A DNA stretch of 64,000 nucleotides. Source: an uncultured Lachnospiraceae bacterium (GTDB lineage Bacteria; Bacillota; Clostridia; Lachnospirales; Lachnospiraceae). The notes beneath the pieces are model-generated. The model was not told the origin of the DNA. It saw only the letters and a list, made by a program, of their open reading frames with translations, and ran no database searches. Shown here one piece after another: positions 28,350-32,819 of this stretch; position 1 is the first letter of the stretch, and each line of letters opens with the position of its first letter. The DNA lies in the NCBI GenBank assembly GCA_946405625.1, contig CAMJHQ010000005.1:62001-126000 (forward strand), given 5' to 3'. The position numbers and the translations under genes are program-made.

Positions 28350-29690
28350 TTACCTTGTAATGTTTCTTACCCACTTATATTTCATATAATGCTTATAAAC
28401 CGCCGGAATTTTTACAAATTCATCCAGTGTGAGTATAAAAGCTACAACAAGTACCGGCAGCTTAAGTACGAAGGCTCCGATCATTCCCATCGGAACTACT
28501 ACGCACCAAAGAGTTATTATATCACACCACATACCGAATTTGGTATCTCCTCCTGCCGGAAAGATTCCGCCTATTATCGTAGAGTTGAGCGAGCCTCCGA
28601 TTATATAATAAGCCTGCATGAACATCATTATCTTCATGAAATAAAGCGCCTGCCCTTCGAGGGTTACAACATTTACGAGGATCGGTGTGATAAGGAGAAG
28701 TATCGCTCCCGATATCGCACCTATCAGAATTGAAAATCTGACAAAGCTGCCTCCGGCTTTCTTCGACTCTTCCAGCTCATCTCTTCCGAGCATCTGTCCG
28801 AGTATGATCGAAACACCTGATGCAACGCCCCAGCAGAAGCTTGCAACCATGCCTCTTACTATACTCGCTATCGAATTTGCAGCAACCGCATCACTTCCGA
28901 GTCTTCCCATTATAACCGAATACATTGTAACTCCGCCGCCCCAGCCGAGCTGATTCAGAAGAAGCGGAACTGTATATTTCCAATAATCCTTATGAATTAT
29001 CTTACTGCATTTTGCAGGGTTCACTGTTTTTATAATATCCAGTGAGATACATTTCTTCATGAAGATAAGAATGATCATGAATACAGTTTCAAATACTCTT
29101 GCAATCACCGTTGCAAGTGCTGCACCCTCTATTCCCATTTCCGGGAATCCCCATAAACCGAATATGAGGACCGCATTCAGGAAAATGTTCAGCACTACGG
29201 AGAGTGAACCGATAAGTGAACTGAGTCCGGCTCTGTCGCATATCTTCAGTATTCCGAAGTAAACCTGTGCGAAGCCTCCTATCACATAAGAAAGCGATAC
29301 CATTTTCAGATATCTTACACCACCCTCTATAAGCACCGGATCATTTGTAAAAATCCTCATTATCATTCCCGGTGCAAACATAGTTGCCGCGGTAAAAACG
29401 ACACCTACTATAAGTGTGTATCTCATGGTAACAGCCAGAACTTCCCTGACTGTTTCTTTATCGCCCTTGCCCCAGTACTGAGCTGCAAGAACCGAACAGC
29501 CATAAACAAATGCACCGAAGAACAGGCTATATACGAAGGCAACCTGAGCCGCAAGCGATACGGAAGACAGACTGTCCTTATCAATAAATCCCAGCATAAA
29601 TGCATCCGATGCCGAAACCAGCGACATCATCAGATACTGAAATGAAACCGGGAGAACTACTTTAAATAAATCTCTGTAAATCTTTTTCAT
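28350..29690 (-). CDS. MATE family efflux transporter
   Basis: 446 aa, about 12 TM, MATE-like repeats. Start overlaps the stop of the ABC-F gene (ATGA). Confidence 0.9.
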   Translation of the reverse strand: MKKIYRDLFKVVLPVSFQYLMMSLVSASDAFMLGFIDKDSLSSVSLAAQVAFVYSLFFGAFVYGCSVLAAQYWGKGDKETVREVLAVTMRYTLIVGVVFTAATMFAPGMIMRIFTNDPVLIEGGVRYLKMVSLSYVIGGFAQVYFGILKICDRAGLSSLIGSLSVVLNIFLNAVLIFGLWGFPEMGIEGAALATVIARVFETVFMIILIFMKKCISLDIIKTVNPAKCSKIIHKDYWKYTVPLLLNQLGWGGGVTMYSVIMGRLGSDAVAANSIASIVRGMVASFCWGVASGVSIILGQMLGRDELEESKKAGGSFVRFSILIGAISGAILLLITPILVNVVTLEGQALYFMKIMMFMQAYYIIGGSLNSTIIGGIFPAGGDTKFGMWCDIITLWCVVVPMGMIGAFVLKLPVLVVAFILTLDEFVKIPAVYKHYMKYKWVRNITR

Positions 29691-31216: not shown

Positions 31217-31241
31217 ATAATTACCTCCTTGTAAAGCAAGA

Positions 31242-31273
31242 CAGCACCGCAAGAATTAATCCTTGCGGTGCTG
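31242..31273 (-). terminator. attenuator hairpin in the ABC-F leader
   Basis: CAGCACCGCAAG-GATTAATT-CTTGCGGTGCTG followed by TCTTGCTTT on the minus strand. Confidence 0.75.
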
Positions 31274-31388
31274 AAAAACCAAAGTAAGGCACTGATATGC
31301 CACATATTATTCGAATACACATATAGAATTATTTCTTGCATGGTGCAGCCTAAATAGAGCATAGCTCCGGTTAACTGCTAAACTTAAA

Positions 31389-31412
31389 TTATCTGCAAGA
31401 AATATTTCTCAT
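31389..31412 (-). CDS. putative leader peptide MRNISCR upstream of the ABC-F gene
   Basis: ATGAGAAATATTTCTTGCAGATAA with GGGAGG 6 nt upstream. Confidence 0.65.
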   Translation of the reverse strand: MRNISCR

Positions 31413-31444
31413 TGGTATCCTCCCTTTTGTCATAATCTTTTTGT

Positions 31445-31473
31445 AGTATAACGGGACAGTTCATAAAATGCAA
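31445..31473 (-). promoter_or_regulatory. promoter of the ABC-F/MATE operon, TTGCAT-N17-TATACT
   Basis: -35 at 31468-31473, -10 at 31445-31450. Confidence 0.7.
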
Positions 31474-31520: not shown

Positions 31521-32819
31521 CTATACCTTTTTTACAAGCAGTTCGACCACAAAGCCATTATCATTATAATATTCTATTCCGCCTTTCTGTTTATCCATAT
31601 AAAGCTTTACAAGATACATTCCGAGGCCGTAACCTGTTTTATCTCTTACATCACTTCCTCGATAATATTTCTCGGTAATAAGCGGCAGCTCTTCCTCCGG
31701 AACTCCCGGACCGTTGTCGCTGATCTTTATCTTTATATAATTTCCAGCCTCTTTATTCTCTGACTTACCGCCTTCAACCGTAATCTCACTGAAATTTACT
31801 CTTATATCGGTATCTGCATACTTGCGAGAATTGCCTATTATATTATCAATAACCTGCTCCATCCTGATCCTGTCTAAATATACAAGACATCGAGGTATAT
31901 GATTCTCCAGAATTACATTTCCGGAATTTTCCGTTCGTCCAAGATATTCTTCGATAAGTGTCGAATTTTCTTCCTTTACGGAAACCTCAATCTTCTCAAG
32001 CTCTTCAAGTGTTGCATGAAATATATTGCTTACAAGCCCATCGATAAGATCTGCCTTCGAAGATATTATCTGAACCTTATCAAGCATATTGGAGGCATCC
32101 GGATTTCCTTCTTCTGCCTTCTTCATAAGCTGCATATCAAGCACCTCACATGCAGCCTTTATAGTAGCAACCGGGGTCTTGATATCATGACTGAGCGCTG
32201 CCACCAATTCCTTTCTGGCTTTCTCGGATTCAATTTCTCTTTCCCTCGATGCCCGAAGTGCTTCCCTCATCATATCAAAGCTTTCCGTAAATGTACCGAA
32301 CAGATTCCTCTTATGTATCGGAAGCTCGATATCCAGATTGCCCTTTGCAATCTCCGAAGCGAATTCATTCATTTCATTAACAGGTTTTATAAGTGTAAAA
32401 TATATTAAAAATATAAAGCAGCTTCCTACGATCAGAATCACTGTCCAAAATGTGATCACCAGCCGTTTGATCTCATTATTATCTTTTTCGTTTTCAGAAT
32501 AATGATCATTCCAAACAACCTTACCGATGTACTCTCCATTAGGCGATAAGTCCAGTACCAGTGCCCCTTTGGAATAATAATCCGTAAGTTCGAGGCTGAT
32601 ATTTTCTGTTTTCAGAACAATATCACATTCATACTTTTTCTCAAGTTCTTCAATAGAAGCTCCTGCTTTATAATCATCACTCAATTCATAAAGCAGATCA
32701 TTGAAGTAAACCATATCTCTCTCTTTATATTTCTTCTGTCCGAAGGTAACGAGAAAGATTACCAAGGCAGCTGCCATAAGCAGTATAAAAGCCGCAAGTA
32801 TCTTACCAATCCATTTCAT
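31521..32819 (-). CDS. sensor histidine kinase
   Basis: Two TM, HAMP-like region, LVAALSHDIKTPVATIKAACEVL, DNIIGNSRKYAD, ISDNGPGVPEEELP, TGYGLGMYLVK. Confidence 0.95.
   Translation of the reverse strand: MKWIGKILAAFILLMAAALVIFLVTFGQKKYKERDMVYFNDLLYELSDDYKAGASIEELEKKYECDIVLKTENISLELTDYYSKGALVLDLSPNGEYIGKVVWNDHYSENEKDNNEIKRLVITFWTVILIVGSCFIFLIYFTLIKPVNEMNEFASEIAKGNLDIELPIHKRNLFGTFTESFDMMREALRASREREIESEKARKELVAALSHDIKTPVATIKAACEVLDMQLMKKAEEGNPDASNMLDKVQIISSKADLIDGLVSNIFHATLEELEKIEVSVKEENSTLIEEYLGRTENSGNVILENHIPRCLVYLDRIRMEQVIDNIIGNSRKYADTDIRVNFSEITVEGGKSENKEAGNYIKIKISDNGPGVPEEELPLITEKYYRGSDVRDKTGYGLGMYLVKLYMDKQKGGIEYYNDNGFVVELLVKKV

Follow-up and report, generated by a model that had tools for sequence, protein, structure and literature searches.

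A putative ribosome-mediated attenuator found in front of Lsa-type ABC-F genes across Bacillota, including plasmid-borne lsa(E)

Whether an ABC-F gene of an uncultured, rumen-type Lachnospiraceae bacterium is controlled by its own leader RNA, and what such a leader would sense, is the question raised by the locus described here. The window, a stretch of 64,000 nucleotides of contig CAMJHQ010000005.1, carries on its minus strand a gene for a predicted antibiotic-resistance ABC-F protein, the best solved relative of which is LsaA (7nhk). Because it scored 613.6 bits against NF000167 (Lsa), below the curated cut-off of 750, the protein is called Lsa-like here and is not named Lsa. The ABC-F gene is followed by a MATE efflux gene, an order retained in the closest relatives, and the two are probably co-regulated under the same attenuator. 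Relatives of the window genome include the isolates NE2001, AC2031 and C6A11 and rumen MAGs. A sequence-only reading had proposed a promoter, a uORF encoding MRNISCR, four pairing segments and a terminator-like hairpin ahead of the ABC-F gene, and all of them were recovered at the claimed positions when the minus strand was read again (Table 1).

Table 1. Position of the leader elements and downstream genes in the window
Feature	Position	Strand	Basis or detail
MATE efflux gene	28350..29690	(-)	TIGR00797; start overlaps ABC-F stop (ATGA)
Lsa-type ABC-F ribosomal protection protein, 509 aa	29687..31216	(-)	NF000355 above cut-off; start ATG 31216
U-tract UCUUGCUUU, weak, 3' of hairpin	31233..31241	(-)	Terminator scan
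Segment 4 CTTGCGGTGCTG, terminator hairpin 3' arm	31242..31253	(-)	Fold, terminator scan, covariation
Terminator loop	31261-31254	(-)	With segment 4, partner of segment 2
Segment 3 CAGCACCGCAAG, terminator hairpin 5' arm	31262..31273	(-)	Sequence, fold, terminator scan
Anti-antiterminator domain (SD-uORF, apical stem, segment 2)	31303..31423	(-)	R1 match and pair counts
Segment 2 switching strand TGCAAGAAATAATTC	31326..31340	(-)	Covaries with segment 1 and segment 4
Segment 2 core TGCAAGAAATA	31340-31330	(-)	11/11 nt complementary to segment 1
Segment 1 TATTTCTTGCA, inside uORF, partner of segment 2	31394..31404	(-)	Fold and pair counts; TTCTTGC 12-18 nt from the A of AUG
uORF ATGAGAAATATTTCTTGCAGATAA (MRNISCR), seven codons	31389..31412	(-)	Read from sequence
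uORF Shine-Dalgarno GGGAGG	31419..31424	(-)	GGAGGA invariant in alignment A2
Promoter TTGCAT-N17-TATACT	31445..31473	(-)	TTGCAT 31473-31468, TATACT 31450-31445, 17-nt spacer; read from sequence

The window promoter fell below the threshold of the promoter tool, its TTGCAT box having three of six matches. The perfect complementarity claimed for segments 1 and 2 was confirmed, and only its extent had been understated: the pairing actually reaches from the Shine-Dalgarno (SD) spacer through the end of the uORF, with GAGACC/GGUUUC in most relatives. The MFE fold of the leader (-69.7 kcal/mol versus -49.1, sd 4.2, for shuffles; z -4.88; none of 200 shuffles equal) holds both hairpins, 1:2 and 3:4. 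The proposed hairpin 3:4, also returned by the terminator scan, comprises 14 bp, with 0.1 such sites expected in shuffles, and its U-tract in the window genome is weak (UCUUGCUUUA). The main SD sequence of the ABC-F gene is predicted to pair with UUACUUU. The window scored 95.3 bits with R1, a covariance model built from genus leaders, the window among its training set.

The sequence-only reading had been staked beforehand on complementarity of the segments being conserved in homologous leaders, and this is what was found. The ABC-F gene is present in 51 of the 61 genomes of the genus, and the same leader occurs in 27 fetched upstream regions, most of them with a promoter of the form TTG-N17-TA...T that precedes the SD of the uORF by about 20 nt. 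The uORFs of the genus encode MR[N/K/S/H/Y/T]ISC[R/K] and variants, segment 2 reads TGCARGAAATAATTC, and the hairpin reads CCGCARG-loop-CYTGCGG. Pairing 1:2 is retained in 89% of cells, as against 34-52% when slid, and six pairs are double-changed. Within the genus GCAAG accompanies CTTGC and GCAGG accompanies CCTGC; since both combinations share CCGCAGG as segment 3 and segment 1 is always CTTGC, the change follows pairing 2:4 and not the terminator stem. One genus leader, L020 (G041), has lost segment 2 with the uORF and hairpin retained, and is predicted to be locked off. Separately, long palindromic insertions with GAGCCAAAGTC / GACTTTGGCGAG-like ends separate the terminator from the ABC-F start at L009, L013, L032, L033, L039 and L046, and resemble a mobile or repeat element of genus-wide occurrence.

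The alternative pairing of segment 2 with segment 4, likewise part of the original proposal, was backed by both swap tests and tree-aware covariation. Among 36 leaders, one for each distinct segment 2, the own 2:4 duplex had -14.1 kcal/mol versus -10.4 (sd 0.39) with swapped terminators, and the own 1:2 duplex had -13.4 kcal/mol versus -11.0 (sd 0.33) with swapped uORF strands (p 2e-5 in each case). On a tree of 59 ABC-F proteins, a segment 2 A/G faced a segment 4 U/C as 41 AU, 16 GC, 2 GU and no AC pairs, giving about 6.5-7 concordant and no discordant independent pairs (p 0.016); because segment 4 base calls based on pairing favour pairs, motif-read bases were used in this test. Individual leaders vary in the same way: in L247 (MKNFFC) segments 1, 2 and 4 are altered together (TTTCTGC / GCAGAAA / TTTTCTGC), and in L062 segment 1 has TCC, segment 2 has G and segment 4 has C. 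Although outside the terminator stem, the terminator loop also tracks segment 2, and a T-run follows the hairpin in most leaders examined. The anti-antiterminator and antiterminator pairings, as predicted from these alignments, are mutually exclusive, and each is supported by covariation; the parts and both alternative pairings are thus present in the sequences, and the four-segment antitermination logic holds at this level.

Considering these results, we regard the element as very probably a ribosome-mediated transcription attenuator of the vmlR kind, triggered by a ribosome that a drug holds at the uORF start codon. Without drug, the ribosome would complete the short uORF and depart, segment 1 would bind segment 2 as anti-antiterminator, hairpin 3:4 would form, and RNA polymerase would halt before the ABC-F gene. 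A drug acting at the peptidyl-transferase centre (PTC) would hold the ribosome on the uORF start codon with segment 1 hidden under its footprint; the freed segment 2 would then pair with the emerging terminator loop and 3' arm, allowing readthrough into the ABC-F and MATE genes. In this scheme we infer the identity of the drug, the stalling at AUG and the terminated transcript, and the drug class is suggested by analogy with the Lsa family.

The element is not peculiar to the window genome. R1 matched in 13 of 397 family genomes, and the 11 matches outside the genus all lay immediately upstream of an Lsa-like ABC-F gene. An SC-type uORF was present in 69 of the 179 upstream regions fetched around genus and family homologues, some of these regions being duplicate or incomplete. 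A second model, R2, built from 30 diverse leaders, matched in 40 of 250 family, 28 of 392 class and 21 of 349 phylum genomes, the window's own included in each count. Nearly all of the 77 matched loci inspected were upstream of Lsa-type ABC-F genes, the exceptions being L238, where the contig ends, L285 and L286, which have ABC-F gene remnants, and L267 (G813), where an SC-type element precedes an ABC-F-like ATPase. As this ATPase is only 25% identical to the window's ABC-F, the element may have passed to another family. Further exceptions were two weak model matches without an ABC-F gene (L296 and L299), which were left out of the counts. Comparison of the sequences therefore confirmed a conserved element in the genus, in the family and in scattered families of Bacillota, nearly always before an Lsa-type ABC-F gene.

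Rfam gave no match in the window at gathering score and nothing credible at a permissive threshold, at which the best match was SpF11 (27.9 versus 54 bits required), and the scan of viral contigs returned no relative of the element. Plus-strand model matches over the same site were rejected as a mirror of the hairpin. The element was absent from the leader of lsa(B), which has a ATGATTTACTAA uORF, and from the Priestia and Paraclostridium plasmid leaders examined. At L063, L065, L067 and L168 the leaders and ABC-F genes are almost identical across different genera, which suggests recent transfer between Lachnospiraceae. Many homologues of about 55-70% identity (L030-L046, L069-L131) are preceded by a different leader, in which the uORF is very short and its last residue is Arg (MRR, MRIR or MIIR before the stop codon), often with a strand GCCGAATTRGATTATCG and a terminator ATAATCYGCTTTCGGC; these leaders are probably a second attenuator class.

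The sequence-only reading had also presented the peptide as a novelty, and the peptide did not prove to be the conserved unit. A peptide-specific arrest, in which the Ser-Cys(-Arg/Lys) end of the peptide is a drug-dependent stall motif that traps the ribosome instead of the start codon doing so, would account for the 69 SC leaders, whose six SC nucleotides vary only synonymously (TCT 61, TCC 7, TCA 1; TGC 69) and 65 of which have SC at codons 5-6. The SC dipeptide as sensor was our first idea. It is disfavoured by leaders whose short uORFs lack SC and yet have TTCTTGC at about the same distance: MK in L259, L260, L265, L268, L272 and L288, MI in L258, MRN in L275 and MKL in L264, each ended by a stop codon, and MDRM with its stop codon in a Paenibacillus plasmid leader, where the segment 1 strand is a few nt further from AUG. 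These short uORFs, of 2-4 codons, stop before segment 1, and in the chromosomal leaders among them a TTCTTGC-like strand keeps its usual place, about 12-19 nt past the A of AUG. Moreover, MxxFFC uORFs alter the peptide, with segment 2 compensating in L247, and in L011 an Ile to Asn change is accompanied by a compensating change in segment 2. Peptide-specific arrest is thus improbable, and the comparison of leaders indicates that the conserved unit is the TTCTTGC strand of the RNA together with its spacing from AUG. An attenuator for amino-acid starvation, in which the uORF codons would report on charged tRNA-Cys, tRNA-Ser or tRNA-Arg, would likewise explain why Ser and Cys codons are fixed in most uORFs; however, these codons are single and without repeats, some uORFs without Ser or Cys share the same RNA, and the gene downstream encodes a ribosomal protection factor and not a biosynthetic enzyme, which makes this explanation very unlikely. 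For the preferred start-codon reading, the 30S toeprint of the vmlR leader, 16 nt downstream of the uORF AUG (PMC9226507), would place the strand at the leading edge of a ribosome on the start codon, a placement that would be expected for lincosamides, pleuromutilins and streptogramin A.

It is also conceivable that attenuation is mainly translational, with the hairpin and its flanks masking the main SD until a ribosome on the uORF exposes it. The weak U-tract and the predicted UUACUUU pairing in the window are in its favour, and both levels are used by cplR and vmlR (PMC10201436; PMC9226507); owing to the poor U-tract, termination in the window may have a low efficiency, or masking of the SD may partly take its place. 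Against it, many relatives have strong U-tracts, and in some up to about 200 nt separate the hairpin from the gene start, so that the hairpin does not mask their SD; we consider a mainly translational mechanism unlikely. As for the suggestion that the hairpin is a plain terminator of the upstream histidine-kinase gene, which ends at 31521, with complementarity by chance, a separate promoter stands between that gene and the hairpin, the uORF is conserved, the association with ABC-F genes is constant and the alternative helices covary; the covariation tests refute it, and its probability is negligible. Transcription attenuation through a start-codon ribosome was further explored by folding with the ribosome footprint (-15 to +17) hidden and the transcript length varied. 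In lsa(E) and L259 the antiterminator was best at all lengths once formable; in the window and L016 it was best only during emergence of segment 4, and the completed terminator beat it by a few kcal in equilibrium folding. Given the greater predicted stability of the finished terminator, the switch in the window would have to act kinetically, during transcription.

The same element is carried by the clinical gene lsa(E). On plasmid pY13 of Enterococcus faecium its parts are GGAGGTGG, the uORF ATGTATAACTTTTCTTGCTAA (MYNFSC), TTGCAAGAAAGTTAA and GAGCCGTAAGAATTTACTTTCTTGCGGCTTTTAA. The lsa(E) leader scored 79.8 bits with R2, a near-identical leader, L177, being in the R2 training set, and the 386-bp leader was found at no less than 80% of its length in 102 plasmid records. 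Locus 524-905 of L218 (NZ_KR936172.1) is a clinical lsa(E) with the same attenuator and the uORF MYNFSC; the Lachnospiraceae loci L228, L229 and L231 have this uORF too, and their ABC-F genes have identical match figures. No earlier description of the lsa(E) attenuator was found in the literature searched, the 56-aa lsaE leader of PMC5916979 being an N-terminal protein extension distinct from it. A premature lsa(E) transcript would be expected to end after GCGGCUUUU without drug, and this end would vanish with drug. Taking these observations together, we lean, by a narrow balance, towards a broader proposal: one Bacillota-wide attenuator family would accompany Lsa-type ABC-F genes, clinical lsa(E) plasmids included, and sense any ribosome held at the start codon, with the RNA strand at its leading edge as sensor, the peptide irrelevant, and every inhibitor of initiation or of early elongation as a trigger.

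This offers a testable account in which Lsa-type genes may stay silent until drug is present, including mobile lsa(E) on plasmids of Enterococcus, Listeria and other Gram-positive bacteria, and resistance could therefore appear lower than it really is in uninduced tests. Whether the peptide or the ribosome position matters has been stated as an open question of the ABC-F field (PMC10201436), and the uORFs that occur naturally, 2 to 10 codons long, form a set that separates the two roles.

The attenuator kind is already known from vmlR, cplR, lmo0919 and tiaA, and the uORF attenuation logic was shown experimentally for the vmlR leader of Bacillus subtilis (PMC9226507) and for the cplR leader (PMC10201436). 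The vmlR leader is similar in having a uORF in an anti-antiterminator hairpin, an antiterminator, an intrinsic terminator, an ABC-F gene and evidence for a start-codon ribosome; it differs in RNA sequence and in its three-codon uORF, MIN, described in a hairpin bulge, whereas most uORFs here contain the pairing strand itself (PMC9226507). In Clostridioides difficile cplR and in lmo0919/vgaL, a short uORF, premature termination, induction by PTC drugs (theirs) and an ABC-F gene are combined in a like manner, but the uORF is MR[I/M], the gene is of ARE1 type and the terminator stem masks the SD of the gene (PMC10201436). Enterococcus faecalis lsa(A) shares an Lsa-family ABC-F gene and a short uORF, the reported MAGN being unlike the M-x-x-x-S-C type in this comparison by published uORF (PMC10201436). 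In Streptomyces coelicolor, PTC drugs stall ribosomes at the uORF start codons of tiaA and are5sc and so favour the antiterminator, although these leaders, from Actinomycetota, are unrelated (PMC12421871). The present element has the features of ARE-ABCF attenuators, namely a uORF with SD, exclusive pairings, a predicted intrinsic terminator and a downstream ABC-F gene. Beyond them, this sequence family, the breadth of its spread, its occurrence at lsa(E) and the comparative evidence for a dispensable uORF peptide seem undescribed in the literature searched.
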